Below, piece after piece: positions 6,761 to 53,625 of a stretch of 64,000 bases of DNA (the stretch's first letter is position 1; each line of letters starts with the position of its first letter). Position numbers and translations under genes: made by a program. Source of the DNA: Salinarchaeum sp. IM2453 (GTDB lineage: Archaea; Halobacteriota; Halobacteria; Halobacteriales; Salinarchaeaceae); NCBI RefSeq assembly GCF_019693215.1, contig NZ_CP081183.1, positions 871,226-935,225 of the forward strand. The letters are read 5' to 3'. The notes below the pieces were generated by a model. That model saw nothing but the letters and a program-made list of their open reading frames with translations. It was not told the DNA's origin and ran no database searches.

Positions 6761-6836
6761 TATCGAAGAATATTGCTGCACTGGTTCTATAACTTGCGAA
6801 AAGTTGTTCACCCAAGGATATGCTTCCAAGTTATAT

Positions 6837-7253
6837 TCATGCTGAGTCAGCAACCACAGCTGCTTCAACGTGGAGGACTCCTGAAAGAGAACGCAGACGA
6901 GTAGTTAAGTCTTGAATGGCATTTCCTGGACCGTCAATGGCGATCGTTTCCATGCAGATATTGGATGTGAGGTGGATATGCTGCACAGCAATAATATGCT
7001 CATTCATTTCATGTTGGATCGTAGTAAGTTGATCATCAAGGTCAGTTTCGTGGTGATCATATAAAATAACGATTGCGCCACGCTGAGGTTGGTTGAGAGC
7101 CCTTTCTTTTTGATATTGTTGAAGAAATGATCGCATTGCATCCCGAACTGCCTCTGATCGAGTGTCATACTCCCAACCATCAGTTACCTCATCAAATGAG
7201 GAAAGAAGCGATTCAGGGACGGTAATACTAATTCGTTCAAGATTATCAGACAT
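6837..7253 (-). CDS. nikR: NikR-type nickel-responsive regulator
   Basis: 138 residues: an N-terminal ribbon-helix-helix (ISITVPESLLSSFDEV with the TRSEAVRDAMR helix) and a C-terminal ACT-like metal domain. The four nickel ligands of NikR are present with correct spacing: His81, His92, His94 and Cys100 (in QHIHLTSNICMETI). NikR binds Ni(II) and then DNA, usually repressing nickel import. It is divergent from a lipoprotein substrate-binding protein at 7364, a natural target. No clear palindrome was found in the 110-bp interval. Confidence 0.92.
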   Translation of the reverse strand: MSDNLERISITVPESLLSSFDEVTDGWEYDTRSEAVRDAMRSFLQQYQKERALNQPQRGAIVILYDHHETDLDDQLTTIQHEMNEHIIAVQHIHLTSNICMETIAIDGPGNAIQDLTTRLRSLSGVLHVEAAVVADSA

Positions 7254-39089: not shown

Positions 39090-39236
39090 ATGGCAGAGTT
39101 CACTGTTGAAGGCGAGGAACTGATCGAAAAAGAGGCGACAGCGACTGGTAACAGCGCACACGTCTACGTTCCAAAAGAGTGGCAAGGCTGCACACTCAAA
39201 ATCATTCGCGTTGATGATCTTGAGACTGAAACATGA
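39090..39236 (+). CDS. DUF2080 family transposon-associated protein
   Basis: 48 residues, ATG 39090 to TGA 39234-39236. The text matches DUF2080: EGEELIEKEATATGNSAHVY and VPKEWQGCTLKIIRVDD, a small AbrB-like swapped-hairpin protein. It overlaps the tnpB start (ACATGA). This pairing is standard for haloarchaeal IS1341-type elements; by analogy it may bind the element's own DNA or limit tnpB expression, which is not proven. Too short to be found by most gene callers. Confidence 0.88.
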   Translation: MAEFTVEGEELIEKEATATGNSAHVYVPKEWQGCTLKIIRVDDLETET

Positions 39237-40963
39237 CACAGCTCACCGAACAGTTCCATCTTCCCGAAGAGTACCACGAAGCGTGTGACCGTCTCACCAC
39301 ACTCGTCCAGCAACACACACACCGATTACTCGCTGACGAATACTGGAGTGACGAGCATCTTGACGCCATCAGTGACCACACCGGCCAGTCCTACACCTAC
39401 ATCCGCGACGACGACACCGACGCCTTCGAAGACGTTGAAGAGTACGTCTACAGTCGATTCAAGCGGTGCGTCTATCACCGCGTCACGCACGTTCTTGACG
39501 CTCACACCGACGAGTTTCAGGCATTTCAGTTCGTGACCGACACGGGTGCCGAGCGCAAGATCCGACGCATCGGCTGGCACAGACTCCGCACACGACTGTA
39601 CGACGAGGAGTCGCCGTACATCGAGTGGCGCGTGCTGGAATCTGTTGTTGACCAGCTCAACACTTACTACGACGCACATGGACGCTTCCCCGAGACGTAC
39701 ACGGAACTGGTCAAAACGCCCGAACCAAACGGCACACTACCCTACGCACCTGATAAGGGTGATTACCACATCCACGAACTAGCAGTCGAAGACGGAGACC
39801 TTCGTGTTGTATTGAACGCACCAGACTCGCTCTCGCCGGAGAGCTACCACGACTGGACAAAACACGAACTCCGCTTTCCGATTCATTCCCGGTTTCGAGA
39901 TATGCTTGATACGGGAGAACTGAAAGCCCCAACATTGCACGCTTCCGAGTATGGCTACACGCTCGACGTGCCTATTGCCGTGTCCGAACAGGACACTGAG
40001 ACAGTTGCCGACCGCGTGCTGGCGGTCGACCTCGGGGTCAAAAAACAAGCCACGGCGGTCGTTCTCGACAGCGGTGACGAGACACACGAGCAAGTGACGC
40101 AGCCACAGTTCATCGACCATCCAAACAAAGACAAACTGTTTCGGATGAAAGCCGACGCGGAAGGCATCAACGACCGGCTGGCAGAACTCCGCAGACAGGG
40201 CAAAGCACACACCGAACGCTTTGATCACTTGCTTAGTGAGTACCGCCAGACGCGGCGAAAAGAACGCCGCTTTCGTGAGCACATTCAACACGACGTGGCC
40301 AACCAGCTAGTATGGCTCGCTGTCAAGAATGGCTGTGAAACCATCGTGTTCGAGTCCCTCGGCCAGATCGACGCACCACAGACGAGTGGGGCTATCGCAT
40401 GGTCGATTTCCTCGTGGGCACGGGGAGAACTGCTCGATCACGTCGAGTACAAGGCCGGGTTGCTCGGAATCGACGTGACGGCGGTGAATCCGTGGGGAAC
40501 GAGTCGGTTCTGTCCTCGGTGTGGTAAACGTGGTCGAACTGTGAACGCGCCCAACGACCACACAGAGTGTCGTCACGGTGGACATTTCTACTGCCCGAAT
40601 TGTGGCTACGAGTGCGATCGGGACGTGGTTGGAGCGGTGAATGTCGGGCGGAAACACCTCTCTGACAGCAAGATGGAGAAGGCAAACCCTGCTGAGTATA
40701 GCTCGGCGGGGAATCACGCCAGTTTTCCATCACCCTCAGAGGGTGCCCGTTCTGCTGGCGTTCAGTCCGCGACCGACAACCAGGATCAGGCGAGCGGTCG
40801 TCAGCCCCGCCTCGCTCAGCACTGTGCCCGGTCACTCACTGCGAACCCGGGTGAGGGAGATATGGGTGGACTGCAGCAAAATCACGGTCGTAATACCGGG
40901 CAGCAGGTGCCCAGCGGGAGTATCACACAGTACGTCCTCGCCAGTACCACCGAATATGGTTGA
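39233..40963 (+). CDS. tnpB: TnpB, RNA-guided nuclease of an IS200/IS605 (IS1341-type) element
   Basis: 576 residues. The RuvC-like triad is visible: Asp266 in AVDLGVKKQ, Glu374 in IVFESLGQ and Asp464 in CDRDVVGAVN. The zinc ribbon CPRC...CPNC is at 427-457. Unlike compact TnpBs (about 400 residues), it has a longer N-terminal part and a roughly 100-residue low-complexity tail after Asp464 whose DNA probably doubles as guide-RNA scaffold. Codon use and GC are clearly higher than in flanking genes, a sign of recent arrival. All catalytic residues are intact. No tnpA is present, so it cannot transpose alone. Confidence 0.93.
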   Translation: MTQLTEQFHLPEEYHEACDRLTTLVQQHTHRLLADEYWSDEHLDAISDHTGQSYTYIRDDDTDAFEDVEEYVYSRFKRCVYHRVTHVLDAHTDEFQAFQFVTDTGAERKIRRIGWHRLRTRLYDEESPYIEWRVLESVVDQLNTYYDAHGRFPETYTELVKTPEPNGTLPYAPDKGDYHIHELAVEDGDLRVVLNAPDSLSPESYHDWTKHELRFPIHSRFRDMLDTGELKAPTLHASEYGYTLDVPIAVSEQDTETVADRVLAVDLGVKKQATAVVLDSGDETHEQVTQPQFIDHPNKDKLFRMKADAEGINDRLAELRRQGKAHTERFDHLLSEYRQTRRKERRFREHIQHDVANQLVWLAVKNGCETIVFESLGQIDAPQTSGAIAWSISSWARGELLDHVEYKAGLLGIDVTAVNPWGTSRFCPRCGKRGRTVNAPNDHTECRHGGHFYCPNCGYECDRDVVGAVNVGRKHLSDSKMEKANPAEYSSAGNHASFPSPSEGARSAGVQSATDNQDQASGRQPRLAQHCARSLTANPGEGDMGGLQQNHGRNTGQQVPSGSITQYVLASTTEYG

Positions 40964-46061: not shown

Positions 46062-46301
46062 AGGCCACACTGCCGATGAGATCTGTGGAAACCAAAATAC
46101 TATGATTGGATGACAGCGTGTCTGGAATATTTGAATGACAGAGAGAACGGATAAAGCGGCCAAATAGTTCATTATACTCTTGTCATTATTACATATTAAG
46201 ATAGTATCATAACCAGAGATAACTAATTAGTAGCATACAAAGACTGTAATTATTGGTGCAAACCGGCAAAATTTTTCTATATTGATTCGTATTAAATTAT
46301 A

Positions 46302-46441
46302 GGGCGCGTAGTTCAGCCTGGAAGAACGGCCGTGTAATGGGTCAATATTATTGTGATCGTGAGTCCGCGCGGCACAATCACAATCCCAATGCTCATCTGA
46401 CTCACCACGGACAGCCCGGGGTTCAAATCCTCGCGTGCCCA
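46302..46441 (+). tRNA. tRNA-like gene with a large anticodon-region insert, isotype unresolved
   Basis: The acceptor GGGCGCG pairs with CGTGCCC (one G-U), discriminator A at 46441. A D arm GTTC-AGCCTGGAA-GAAC and T arm CGGGG-TTCAAAT-CCTCG are intact. The body is 140 nt, about 65 nt more than a type I tRNA, and the extra lies in the anticodon arm. Reading the 5' half straight gives anticodon AAT, which archaea do not use; no splice choice I tried gives a normal loop. The insert holds two overlapping complementary pairs (ATTGTGAT/ATCACAAT and GTGAGTC/GACTCAC). It is an intron-bearing tRNA, a decayed one, or a tRNA-derived RNA. Confidence 0.5.
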
Positions 46442-46620: not shown

Positions 46621-46715
46621 TGGTATAGTGTAATCCAGTTGCCTCTATATACATACCACGTCAAATATATAAATATTATAATAATACTTGTACAGTATCA
46701 GCGTTGTACTAGTTG

Positions 46716-47708
46716 ATGGCAGCAGAAGATACTCCAAGAGGAGGAATCTCACGACGAAACGCACTAACTGCGCTTAGTGGAATCGGGGTTATTTCCCTTG
46801 CAGGGTGTACTGATATATTCGGGGATGATACGATTGAAGCGTCTGGGTCGAACACAGTCCGACCGTTAACAGAAACTGTTGCAGAGAGCTTTGAAGACGA
46901 CTACGATGAAGATATATCGATTAATGTAGAGGGACCTGGAACTGGAGCTGGATTTGAGTCCTTTACACAAGGAGAAACAGACATTCAAAATGCAAGTCGG
47001 GCCGCTACTGACGAAGAACTTGATGATGCAGATGATAACGATGTCGAGTTTACTCGATTCCAAGTCGGACAAGACGCATTATCAGTGTACATCAATGACG
47101 AGAATGAGTTCCTTGATCCAGATGAAGACAATTTTATTACAATCTCTGAGTTGGGAGACATCTATGAGTTTGAGTCGGAAGTAGAACAGTGGAGTGATGT
47201 GCGTGATGAATGGCCGGACGAGGAAATAGATATTTGGGGGCGTGACAGTGATTCAGGCACATTCGATTATTTCACTGAGGCAGTAACTGGTGAAGCAGGT
47301 AACGTCCGTACTGATTATAATGATCGTACCGAAACACTGGCAGTTGTTGAAGGCGTTGAAGATAGTGAGTTTGCCATTGGGTTTGGTGGATACGCATTTC
47401 TTGAAGAAGGTGATGTTATGGGAGCTGCGGTCAGGTATGAAGAAGAACATGACGAAGGCGAAGCGTATCCCCCGGAACCAGAAGCTATTGAAGCAGGGGA
47501 TTATCAGCCACTTACACGACCACTGTTCATTTTTGTAAATCACGATCTATTTGAAGAGGAACACGGACGGGATTTCATTCGGTATTATTTCGATAACGTC
47601 GATGAAATTGCTCCAGAAGTGGATTTCTTCCCGGCACCAGAAGACGTATTGGAAGAGAATCACGACAAGATGGACGATATTCTGGACGATCTAGGAATTG
47701 ATGAGTAA
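46716..47708 (+). CDS. pstS: phosphate ABC transporter substrate-binding lipoprotein
   Basis: 330 residues from ATG 46716. The signal ISRRNALTALSGIGVISLAGC has the Tat twin arginine and a lipobox ending in Cys, so it is exported folded and lipid-anchored. The PstS fold follows: IEASGSNTVRPLTETVAESF, EGPGTGAGFESFTQGETDI and WGRDSDSGTFDYFTEAV, all phosphate-contact regions. It delivers phosphate to PstCA. A TTG one codon earlier is possible. It opens the pstSCA run and its AT-rich promoter region carries the motif at 46600. Confidence 0.93.
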   Translation: MAAEDTPRGGISRRNALTALSGIGVISLAGCTDIFGDDTIEASGSNTVRPLTETVAESFEDDYDEDISINVEGPGTGAGFESFTQGETDIQNASRAATDEELDDADDNDVEFTRFQVGQDALSVYINDENEFLDPDEDNFITISELGDIYEFESEVEQWSDVRDEWPDEEIDIWGRDSDSGTFDYFTEAVTGEAGNVRTDYNDRTETLAVVEGVEDSEFAIGFGGYAFLEEGDVMGAAVRYEEEHDEGEAYPPEPEAIEAGDYQPLTRPLFIFVNHDLFEEEHGRDFIRYYFDNVDEIAPEVDFFPAPEDVLEENHDKMDDILDDLGIDE

Positions 47709-47719
47709 TAAAGCAGACC

Positions 47720-48724
47720 ATGAGTGAGCAAAATCAGTTGGAGGTTCAGGCAACTGAAACAGCGGTTAAAAGTGCCAAACGGACAAGCCAGATTATTCGC
47801 TGGGCACTGTTTGGTTGTATGTTGATTACGGTACTTACTACGCTGGCAATTTTTGGTCTCCTTATAAACGAGTCAGCGCATTTCTTTTTCAACCGTTCAC
47901 TGGTTGGGATCATTACAGCGGTGTTTACTGGTGGTGAGATTATACAGCGTGTATCATTTGTTGAATTTTTCACAGACACAGAATGGCGACCGTCACACGC
48001 AGTTGATCCCAGATTTGGTCTTCTCCCGTTAGCAGCAGGAACGCTTCTGGTAACATTTGGTGCAGCAATGGTATCGATTCCAATCGGGACACTGACTGCC
48101 CTATATGTTTCCGAATATGCTAGTGCAAGGACAAAGGCATATCTCAAGCCAACACTTGAGATTCTCGCTGGTATCCCTACGATTGTATACGGATTTTTTG
48201 CCATCTCATTTGTGACACCGGTGGTAATTCGACCACTGGCGGATATTCTCGGGTATGAGGCGGGTATTGTCAACGCCGCGTCAGCAAGCATCGTTGTCGG
48301 GATCATGACTATCCCGATGGTTGCTTCAATCAGCGAGGATGCAATGGACGCTGTACCCGACAGTCTCCGAGATGGAGCATATGCACTGGGGGCGACCAAA
48401 TACCAAGTATCAACACGAATTGTACTTCCTGCATCTATTTCTGGTATTTTTGCGTCCTATATTCTTGCCATTTCTCGCGCAATTGGAGAAACAATGGCTG
48501 TCACTCTCGCCGCCGGGCGAAACCCACAGATAACGCTGAATTTCTTCGATGAAATTCAGACAATTACTGCATACATGGTTAATGCAGCACGGGGAACAGC
48601 CGTTGTCGGGAGTGTTGAGTATCAAAGTCTGTTTGCTGCTGGTCTTATTCTCTTTCTTATCACATTAGCGATGAACACGCTCAATGACTACATGAAACAT
48701 CGGTTCCGGGAGGTGTACAAATAA
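47720..48724 (+). CDS. pstC: phosphate ABC transporter permease PstC
   Basis: 334 residues with six or so TM segments. The permease core has the EAA-like loop MDAVPDSLRDGAYALGATKYQ and the family sequence IPIGTLTALYVSEYAS. It starts 12 bp after pstS and its stop overlaps the pstA start (TAATG), so it is translationally coupled. It forms the membrane channel with PstA. Confidence 0.93.
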   Translation: MSEQNQLEVQATETAVKSAKRTSQIIRWALFGCMLITVLTTLAIFGLLINESAHFFFNRSLVGIITAVFTGGEIIQRVSFVEFFTDTEWRPSHAVDPRFGLLPLAAGTLLVTFGAAMVSIPIGTLTALYVSEYASARTKAYLKPTLEILAGIPTIVYGFFAISFVTPVVIRPLADILGYEAGIVNAASASIVVGIMTIPMVASISEDAMDAVPDSLRDGAYALGATKYQVSTRIVLPASISGIFASYILAISRAIGETMAVTLAAGRNPQITLNFFDEIQTITAYMVNAARGTAVVGSVEYQSLFAAGLILFLITLAMNTLNDYMKHRFREVYK

Positions 48725-49635
48725 TGGCGGAACAAGACACGCAAGCGCTTTCCACACAGTCAAAGAGCCGGAAAGTGCAGGTTGAACATCTTAAAAGCCG
48801 TCTGTTCAAAGTTGTCTGTTTGGGTGCTGCACTTGTTGGATTTGCAGCACTGACATTGTTACTTGCAGATATTATCTGGGAAGCATACGTTGCAGTTACC
48901 GATTTTGGGATTGATATCATTCAGTTTCTTATCAGTCCAGGATCAACGGACCCTACAAGTGCTGGGATATTAGCTGCCGTTATTGGATCGCTTTGGTTGA
49001 TGATCCTCACAGCGCTTTTCACCTTTGGCATCGGGGTTGGAGCAGCAATCTACCTTGAAGAGTTTGCACCGGAAAATCGGTGGAAACGTGTTATAGAAAT
49101 AAATCTCGCTAATCTCGCTGGGGTCCCGTCTGTTGTTTATGGTCTCGTTATACTTGGACTGATGATTCATGTACTAGGTTTCGATGCGATTATTATTGTT
49201 GGTGCTATCGCACTCTCGTTGACTGTTATGCCAATTGTTATTGTATCAGCACAGGAGGCGCTTCGAGCAGTCCCAGACAGCATGCGAGAGGCGTCAGATG
49301 CAACAGGGGCGACCCAATGGCAAACAGTACGAAATGTTGTATTACCAGCAGCAATGCCGGGAATTCTCACAGGAATGATCCTCGGGCTAGCGGACGCATG
49401 GGGACAGACAGCACCAATAATTATGGTTGGAACGCTGGTTGGAGCTCGTCACGTTCCATGGACACCGTTTGATCGAAACGTTGCGCTTACAGCAACGATT
49501 TTTGAGTGGTCATTTAGTTTTGAACCAGGATTTCGAGCGATTGCAGCACTTGGTATTGTTATTTTGTTAATTATCCTATTGGCGATGAATGGTATTGCTA
49601 TTTACCTTCGTCACCGATACGAAACTGCTGTGTAA
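48724..49635 (+). CDS. pstA: phosphate ABC transporter permease PstA
   Basis: 303 residues, six predicted TM segments. The EAA loop is LRAVPDSMREASDATGATQW and the region GVGAAIYLEEFAPENRWKRV precedes it. It is the last gene of the + strand unit. In a normal pst operon pstB would follow directly; here it is on the opposite strand 3 kb away. Confidence 0.93.
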   Translation: MAEQDTQALSTQSKSRKVQVEHLKSRLFKVVCLGAALVGFAALTLLLADIIWEAYVAVTDFGIDIIQFLISPGSTDPTSAGILAAVIGSLWLMILTALFTFGIGVGAAIYLEEFAPENRWKRVIEINLANLAGVPSVVYGLVILGLMIHVLGFDAIIIVGAIALSLTVMPIVIVSAQEALRAVPDSMREASDATGATQWQTVRNVVLPAAMPGILTGMILGLADAWGQTAPIIMVGTLVGARHVPWTPFDRNVALTATIFEWSFSFEPGFRAIAALGIVILLIILLAMNGIAIYLRHRYETAV

Positions 49636-52060: not shown

Positions 52061-52750
52061 TCAGTAGATTAATCCAGCATCCTGTTGTTCCATATAAAGC
52101 GTTCTAGCGCAGATATTGACTGCATGGTCACCAACTCGTTCAATGTCTCGAACAGCAAGTAATGCATTTGAGATTTCATCAAGAGCCTGCTTTTGTGTCT
52201 GTACAGGCCGCTCTTGAAGATCACTGTTGATGAGACTACGTATTATCCGATCACTAGCAGCTCGACAGTCTTGGTCAAGTTGCTCATCACGAGCGGCGAT
52301 ATTCCAAGTTGACGTTGCATCGCGTCCATCGTATGCGGCAACTGCATCCATCAGCAATTCTTGTGCTGTTTCCGCGATGTACAGGAGATCATCGATTGAA
52401 ATCGGCTGTAAGAGATCCATCTCTTTCCAAGCGGTGGCATACTTAGCCAAGTTTGTGGCAATGTCTCCTACTCTTTCTAAATCAGTGATAATCTTGAATG
52501 AGGAAGCAACAAACCGAAGATCGCTTGCAACGGGCTGCTGTAAAGCAAAAAGGTCGATGCATGTCTGCTCAAGATCAAGATAACGTTCATTTATTTCATG
52601 ATCCGCATCAATGATTGCTCTTGCGTCCTGCCGATTTCCAGAGGTAAATAAGTTCAAAGCTTGAATATATCGATCATTGACTTCATCAGCCATCAAGACG
52701 ACATCCTCGCGCAGGTCGTCTAGCTGCTGTTGATATGAATCTCGAGGCAT
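52061..52750 (-). CDS. phoU: phosphate-signalling regulator PhoU
   Basis: 229 residues, two PhoU helical repeats: LFALQQPVASDLRFVASSFK with the ERVGDIATNLAKYA metal motif, and ALDEISNALLAVRDIERVGD with HAVNICARTLY. PhoU restrains PstSCAB uptake and signals phosphate sufficiency. It is 2 bp downstream of pstB and 4 bp before the AbrB-PhoU gene, so all are one transcript. Confidence 0.93.
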   Translation of the reverse strand: MPRDSYQQQLDDLREDVVLMADEVNDRYIQALNLFTSGNRQDARAIIDADHEINERYLDLEQTCIDLFALQQPVASDLRFVASSFKIITDLERVGDIATNLAKYATAWKEMDLLQPISIDDLLYIAETAQELLMDAVAAYDGRDATSTWNIAARDEQLDQDCRAASDRIIRSLINSDLQERPVQTQKQALDEISNALLAVRDIERVGDHAVNICARTLYMEQQDAGLIY

Positions 52751-52752
52751 TG

Positions 52753-53625
52753 TTATCCAAATTTCCCGGTGATATAGTCTTCAACTCGGGGATCATCTGG
52801 ATTCTCAAAGATGGTTGCTGTATCAGCAAACTCAGCTAACTCACCACCGGTCAGGAAAACCGCTGTTTTATCGGAAGTACGGGCCGCCTGCTGCATGTTG
52901 TGTGTAATAATAACAACGGTATATTCCTCAGCCAATTGCTCAATGAGGTCTTCAATCTCAGCAGTCGCGACCGGATCAAGAGCACTGGCTGGCTCATCCA
53001 TTAATAGTAGCTCGGGATCTGGGGCAATTGCACGAGCAATACATAGCCGTTGTTGCTGGCCACCAGACAGCTCAAGCCCAGACTCGTCAAGTTGGTCTTT
53101 CACCTCATCCCAGAGGGCAGCATCCCGAAGTGCCTGTTCAACAACTTCATCAAGATCAACATCATCTGCCTTCCCTTGAATTCGGAGTCCATAGGCAACG
53201 TTGTCGTATATTGATTTAGGAAACGGGTTGGGTTTCTGAAAGACCTGTCCGACTTTCCGACGTAGCACAACAGGATCAACATCAGAGTCGTATATGTTGG
53301 TGTCTTTAAAATACACATCACCTTCTGTACGTGCGCTATCAATCCGGTCATTCATACGGTTAAAACAGCGAATAAATGTCGATTTACCGCAGCCTGAAGG
53401 ACCAATAATAGCGGTGACTTGCTTTTCTGGAATCTGGATTGATACGTCGTCAATTGCTTTCTGGTCACCGTAGTATACGCTGAGGTCTTCAGTTCTAACA
53501 ACAGTGGTGTCAGTCTGTGTATGCTGTGCTGACGACTCGACATCTATGTCCATCGAAATTAGTGTATCTTCTTGATTATCAGTGATCGTTGTGGAAGAAT
53601 CAGAGGCAGGCGTTTTTTGGGACAT
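52753..53625 (-). CDS. pstB: phosphate ABC transporter ATPase PstB
   Basis: 290 residues. Walker A is GPSGCGKST, the signature [14 protein letters not shown] and Walker [13 protein letters not shown]. The PstB-specific [22 protein letters not shown] is present. The N-terminal 45 residues are an extra acidic, Ser/Thr-rich extension. It powers PstCA. It is transcribed away from the P-type ATPase gene and starts the pstB-phoU-phoU2-phosphoesterase unit, opposite in direction to pstSCA. Confidence 0.94.

Follow-up and report, generated by a model that had tools for sequence, protein, structure and literature searches.

What is encoded by a gene with the acceptor, D and T arms of a tRNA and, where the anticodon loop should be, a long segment in which no sensible anticodon can be read? 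The locus lies in the 64,000-nucleotide stretch of DNA that was analysed (the window), which is positions 871226-935225 of a single-contig 2.66-Mb genome (GC 47% over 1.29 Mb). The original prediction proposed either a tRNA containing unusual introns, one or two in number, or a tRNA-derived regulatory RNA, with decay of a pseudogene as the case against both. From comparison with its relatives, we consider it probable that 46302-46441 encodes a conserved small RNA of the haloarchaea which is tRNA-Ala-like and non-decoding, and of which this genome has two copies. The gene was missed by ARAGORN run without introns and by the Rfam tRNA model at its gathering score; each copy resembles a broken tRNA, and the RNA family has been overlooked for this reason. 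Its parts, all on the plus strand, are as follows.

46268-46283, plus strand: predicted A/T-rich, TATA-like promoter element, -34 to -19 from the first base (A/T peak in 31 non-redundant members)
46302-46441, plus strand: whole tRNA-like RNA gene, copy 1 of 2 (from sequence, second copy and family)
46302-46308, plus strand: acceptor stem, 5' strand (read from sequence; covaries in the family)
46311-46327, plus strand: D arm, stem GTTC/GAAC, with A14, G15 and G18G19 invariant
46329-46333, plus strand: anticodon-position stem (stem 1), 5' strand GCCGT (covariation)
46334-46406, plus strand: 73-nt segment replacing the 7-nt anticodon loop
46339-46344, plus strand: stem 2, 5' strand GGGTCA (sequence reading and predicted fold; analogous helix in relatives)
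46350-46361, plus strand: stem 3, 5' strand ATTGTGATCGTG (covariation)
46362-46364, plus strand: conserved AGU preceding the loop octamer (AGU in 21 of 23 members)
46365-46372, plus strand: self-complementary apical octamer CCGCGCGG
46373-46384, plus strand: stem 3, 3' strand CACAATCACAAT (covariation)
46398-46403, plus strand: stem 2, 3' strand TGACTC (sequence reading and predicted fold)
46407-46411, plus strand: anticodon-position stem (stem 1), 3' strand ACGGA (covariation)
46417-46433, plus strand: T arm, CGGGG, loop TTCAAAT, CCTCG (C48 just 5' of the arm, opposite G15)
46434-46441, plus strand: acceptor stem, 3' strand, and discriminator A73 (pair 3:70 is G:C; CCA not encoded)

The element is 140 nt long, its tRNA-type acceptor, D and T arms enclosing an oversized anticodon region. 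The coordinates and intact arms that were first proposed for it are right on our reading of the sequence, the excess in the anticodon region is present at about 66 nt, and the straight reading of the anticodon as AAU holds. The acceptor stem has 7 bp, including one G-U, followed by A73, and the tertiary core of the cloverleaf (U8, A14, G15:C48, G18G19 and the T loop) is kept both in this copy and in the family. The anticodon arm had been thought to be replaced as a whole; its loop is indeed replaced, but homologues reveal that the stem is present as GCCGT/ACGGA, with a mismatch at the first pair that is common to the sister copy and an extension of one G-C. Of the two mutually exclusive pairings proposed within the insert, ATTGTGAT/ATCACAAT is part of a covarying stem, whereas GTGAGTC/GACTCAC is unsupported, since GTGAGTC lies in the apical hairpin and GACTC pairs with GGGTC. 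Folding of copy 1 as a single sequence was unremarkable (z -1.1), and as such the support for the structure is comparative.

A DNA search found the second copy within this genome, at G000:C1:2209750-2209890 on the minus strand (85% identity, E 9e-42). The two copies differ by compensating changes, and their similarity is limited to the gene and about 36 nt upstream of it. Relatives in other genomes have the body and the core of the insert in common, and 35 related records were found across the haloarchaea. Of 394 genomes of the order, 23 had the family by a covariance model followed by a gapped pattern, and a reversed control pattern matched none; these counts are lower bounds, as only D arms with GTTC fit the pattern and few candidates in each genome were scored by the model search. 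That about 6% of genomes carry the RNA by the pattern used implies that its function is dispensable. Further carriers came to light when 84,980 species were scanned: Halovenus salina (plasmids unnamed1, 2 and 3), Halovenus rubra, Halobellus salinus, Halonotius pteroides (two copies), Natronococcus, Natrarchaeobius, Halorutilus, Halosimplex pelagicum, Haloquadratum, Haladaptatus and several MAGs. Cultured carriers include Halovenus salina, Halonotius pteroides and Halorutilus salinus. Matches outside the haloarchaea resembled ordinary tRNAs with introns or fortuitous combinations of tRNA parts. The exact loop had no match in viral contigs, the body pattern had 32 matches there, none with the family body and insert on inspection, and phage records gave no match to the family.

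Within the family, a smaller subfamily (Haloquadratum, G115 and G261; members at L232:4396-4531, L233:1390-1525, L153:1489-1624 and L152:1494-1628) has the same tRNA body with another apical module, GACGGUCG-hairpin-...-CGUC, and no palindromic loop. A Haladaptatus member (L145:1494-1621) keeps the body with an insert that falls outside both subfamilies, and a few more members keep the body and differ in the apical part.

Across the 35 records U8, A14, G15 and G18G19 are invariant, G15 stands opposite C48 in 34 and the T loop is TTCRANT in all, an invariance of the core that was in part imposed by the search pattern; the seven seeds that BLAST had recovered beforehand, however, do not vary at U8, A14, G15 or G18G19 either. 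Stem 1 (27-31/39-43) is paired in 99 of 115 cells compared with 76.8 +/- 3.3 when shuffled, and the 8 pairs of stem 3 nearest the loop, aligned across members by distance from the loop alone, are paired in 172 of 184 cells compared with 144.2 +/- 3.5; the shuffle dealt 3' strands to other members and ignores relatedness, so these figures are not probabilities. Between stems 1 and 3, sequences and folds compared by eye have an asymmetric internal loop, a second helix and a larger internal loop. In 31 non-redundant upstream regions, A/T content peaks between -31 and -28 relative to the first base (0.76 compared with 0.47; nominal binomial p 1e-10, for a position chosen after inspection), which is the site where an archaeal TATA box would set initiation close to the 5' end. 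In this genome, ordinary tRNA genes also have raised A/T at -29 to -27. From this signal, the tRNA-like RNA is likely to be expressed from a TATA promoter of its own.

If the locus were a tRNA pseudogene, or a tRNA that an insertion had disrupted and that is now in decay, it would have no readable anticodon, as is the case here, and a patchy distribution in which some copies are plasmid-borne would be consistent with this. However, compensatory changes in stems 1 and 3 go beyond those of shuffled partners and are found both across relatives and between the two copies of this genome, the tertiary bases and the loop are invariant, and one architecture is maintained across many families with its promoter signal kept. 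Decay is accordingly the reading that we regard as extremely improbable.

A functional tRNA from which unusual introns are removed to give a decoding molecule has other evidence in its favour. The acceptor, D and T arms and the anticodon stem are intact, ARAGORN in intron mode calls a Glu-CUC tRNA at 46302-46441, and some isoacceptors, including Pro-GGG and a third CAU tRNA, were not found in the genome. The archaeal splicing endonuclease requires a bulge-helix-bulge motif. Archaeal tRNA introns have it at their splice sites (PMC4090602), and we scanned for it as a 4-bp helix between two 3-nt bulges. It was at the canonical place, with outer and inner helices of 10-15 bp, in six of six haloarchaeal intron-bearing controls (Trp, Met and four Lys); a tRNA-Trp(CCA) with a canonical large intron, elsewhere in this genome, was used as a control. 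In contrast, no family member had the motif at the equivalent place or with similar strength, the scan giving nothing or scattered matches with a flanking helix of 7 bp or less. No anticodon is conserved in the family: the 7-nt loop is replaced, the would-be triplets vary between members and between both copies, and intron mode implies Glu-CUC for copy 1 and His-AUG for its sister, so that no anticodon here is meaningful. U33 is not kept, and the supposed intron holds the most conserved part of the RNA. Splicing at an unusual motif gains something from two tRNA-Ala genes with inserts, in Nanohaloarchaea SG9 and a related contig, which were also weak or nil in the scan. On balance we think an intron-bearing tRNA unlikely, and the variable anticodons, loss of U33 and lack of a bulge-helix-bulge speak against that half of the original prediction, while its proposal of a tRNA-derived RNA agrees with the tRNA-Ala-like body and the conserved, covarying, non-decoding arm.

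The SG9 gene (L216, match 6810-6931) is tRNA-Ala-like, with an apparent anticodon CGC, G3:U70, a long anticodon-loop insert and a D arm nearly identical to that of the haloarchaeal family. The tRNA inventory of the present genome comprises 40 tRNAs and tRNA-Trp (loci L001-L041), with only two CAU tRNAs; Pro-GGG, Pro-CGG, Arg-CCG, Gly-CCC and a third CAU tRNA were not found among these or in an intron-tolerant scan of 1.29 Mb, about half of the genome. Genes missing from this inventory may be intron-bearing or atypical in sequence. That either copy rescues a missing isotype seems doubtful: there is no usable anticodon in copy 1 or 2, and carriers cannot be told from non-carriers by their number of Pro-type D arms. 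Two further features once suggested for the insert are not conserved: the alternative anticodon stem GTCCG/CGGAC does not recur in the sister copy, which has GTTCG, and the box-D-like CTGA is CTGG there. Copy 1 has no RTGATGA, and C/D boxes are not common to the relatives.

The body is nearest to tRNA-Ala in five of six members tested, A73 is kept in nearly all records, and G3:U70 is found in 5 of 35, with G:C at 3:70 here and in most records. We infer that the ancestor was a tRNA-Ala which lost decoding and, in most lineages, alanine identity. The five records with G3:U70 could be charged with alanine; in most members the body is probably uncharged, because G3:U70 is lost. The family thus has in common with archaeal tRNA-Ala a similar body sequence (in most members tested), A73 and an AGGCC-type variable region, but it has no anticodon loop, has lost G3:U70 in 30 of 35 records and is 110-150 nt long. 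With the haloarchaeal intron-containing pre-tRNAs for Trp, Met and Lys it has in common a tRNA body and a long insert in the anticodon loop, and differs from them in having no bulge-helix-bulge, no conserved anticodon and its most conserved stretch inside the insert.

Similar arrangements are known outside the archaea. Bacterial tmRNA likewise has an alanine-type tRNA body and a long helical arm in place of the anticodon arm; in the family, unlike tmRNA, the D stem is intact and G3:U70 is mostly lost. A tmRNA-type tag frame common to both copies was not found on reading the sequences, since copy 2 has a stop codon in the frame that copy 1 leaves open, and tmRNA is not known from archaea. YrlA, a bacterial Y RNA with a tRNA-like domain (PMC7790460), is also non-decoding with a tRNA-like fold, but the two ends of the family's RNA sit in the acceptor stem as in tRNA. 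A TROVE/Ro60/Rsr protein is absent from this genome and occurs in 2 of 22 carriers compared with 2 of 16 other genomes, and a Ro/TROVE partner was rejected given this lack of association with carriage. The tRNA-Other of Bacillus cereus (PMC3399842) is similarly a tRNA-like gene recruited to a role outside translation, but is a single pseudo-tRNA within longer transcripts, with no conserved rebuilt arm described. The Rfam tRNA model, with the insert skipped, scored above gathering for the bodies of copy 2 and eight homologues, and no Rfam 15 family other than tRNA matched the element at relaxed thresholds. No account of such haloarchaeal RNAs was found in the open-access literature searched, which leaves out most subscription journals. 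The family is without an Rfam entry of its own and is set apart from tmRNA, YrlA and tRNA-Other by the features tested.

Comparison of these genes shows that the core of the tRNA L-shape is kept, and that the anticodon loop has become a rod-like arm which in the main subfamily is capped by AGU and CCGCGCGG. This tip is AGU followed by CCGCGCGG in 19 of 23 non-redundant loop-bearing members, with UCGCGCGA in three (copy 2 of this genome, a Natrialbaceae MAG and Halosimplex) and CCGCGCGCGG in one (G179). The octamer is self-complementary in all 23, its outermost pair changing on both sides together, and a loop-loop duplex is strong in silico (-16.7 kcal/mol). The HIV-1 dimerisation site is a self-complementary kissing loop, a GC-only palindrome atop a stem with purines before it; the comparison is an analogy of mechanism with no homology, the family's palindrome being 8 nt long and carried by a tRNA body. 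No antisense target for the loop emerged in this genome, where AGTCCGCGCGG occurs exactly once and near matches do not exceed the control.

The same RNA might instead form its loop intramolecularly, as a protein-binding hairpin with an AGU bulge, a CC/GG pair and a GCGC tetraloop, and not dimerise. Single-strand folding forms precisely this structure, CCGCGCGCGG in G179 would form CCG/CGG with a CGCG tetraloop, and the 2-bp CC/GG explains the covariation of the loop as well as dimerisation does. However, a 2-bp stem is weak and self-complementarity is kept over the full 8 nt, neither of which is decisive; we give the intramolecular hairpin a substantial chance, short of an even one.

The genomic context raises one more possibility, that the gene is an element which regulates the phosphate-uptake (pst) operon downstream of it. 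A pstS-type gene lies about 272 nt downstream in the same orientation, with pst permease genes after it, and the unrelated sRNA132 of Haloferax acts on a phosphate transporter operon (PMC6560208). In contrast, neither copy 2 nor any other mapped locus has a pst neighbour, and sRNA132 is described as Haloferax-only (PMC6560208), which makes a pst element very unlikely. The pst genes are themselves split between 46713-49635 and 52061-53625, with pstS and two permease genes on the plus strand, pstB, PhoU and a second regulator-like gene on the minus strand, and a metallophosphatase-like gene in between.

Neighbouring genes differ between loci, and there is no consistent gene partner. In several lineages a 334-aa coiled-coil protein (L214:468-1472, L205:3631-4650 and L269:35625-36644) or an XPB-helicase/DUF790 pair lies less than 5 kb from the RNA. 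The 334-aa protein has no Pfam match and is often multi-copy in haloarchaeal genomes, and SWIM genes are also near. In 20 regions around relatives of this protein in other genomes we found only ordinary tRNA-sized matches and no tRNA-like gene, and the protein is therefore not an obligate partner. Three plasmids of Halovenus salina have copies, and an integrase-like gene is close to the RNA in Halobellus salinus. TnpB-type genes were also observed: in the window, 39233-40963 encodes a 576-aa TnpB-type protein (Cas12f1-like TNB domain) with a long C-terminal extension past the domain, and no sot RNA reached the Rfam gathering score in these 64 kb. In G148, an Rfam sot2652 RNA (a sense overlapping transcript, IS-associated; L097:1659-1847) directly adjoins the tRNA-like gene, with a TnpB-like gene alongside.

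How might such an RNA act? The tRNA body would supply a stable fold and defined ends, the latter trimmed as in a tRNA by RNase P and tRNase Z. Most likely, the apical loop would pair with a second copy of itself as a kissing homodimer, or would dock a protein or another RNA, and the tRNA body would serve outside translation as a decoy or scaffold for tRNA-binding proteins. We tentatively suggest, as a possibility with the odds against it, that a tRNA-Ala became a dedicated, uncharged structural RNA whose kissing homodimer has tRNA bodies at both ends, with which it either ties up ribosomes or enzymes that bind tRNA or diverts toxins that cut tRNA by acting as their decoy, and whose gene is spread in part by plasmids. 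The family would represent an archaeal tRNA gene turned into a non-decoding RNA, in which the anticodon loop has been rebuilt and the elbow, acceptor and anticodon stem are still constrained.
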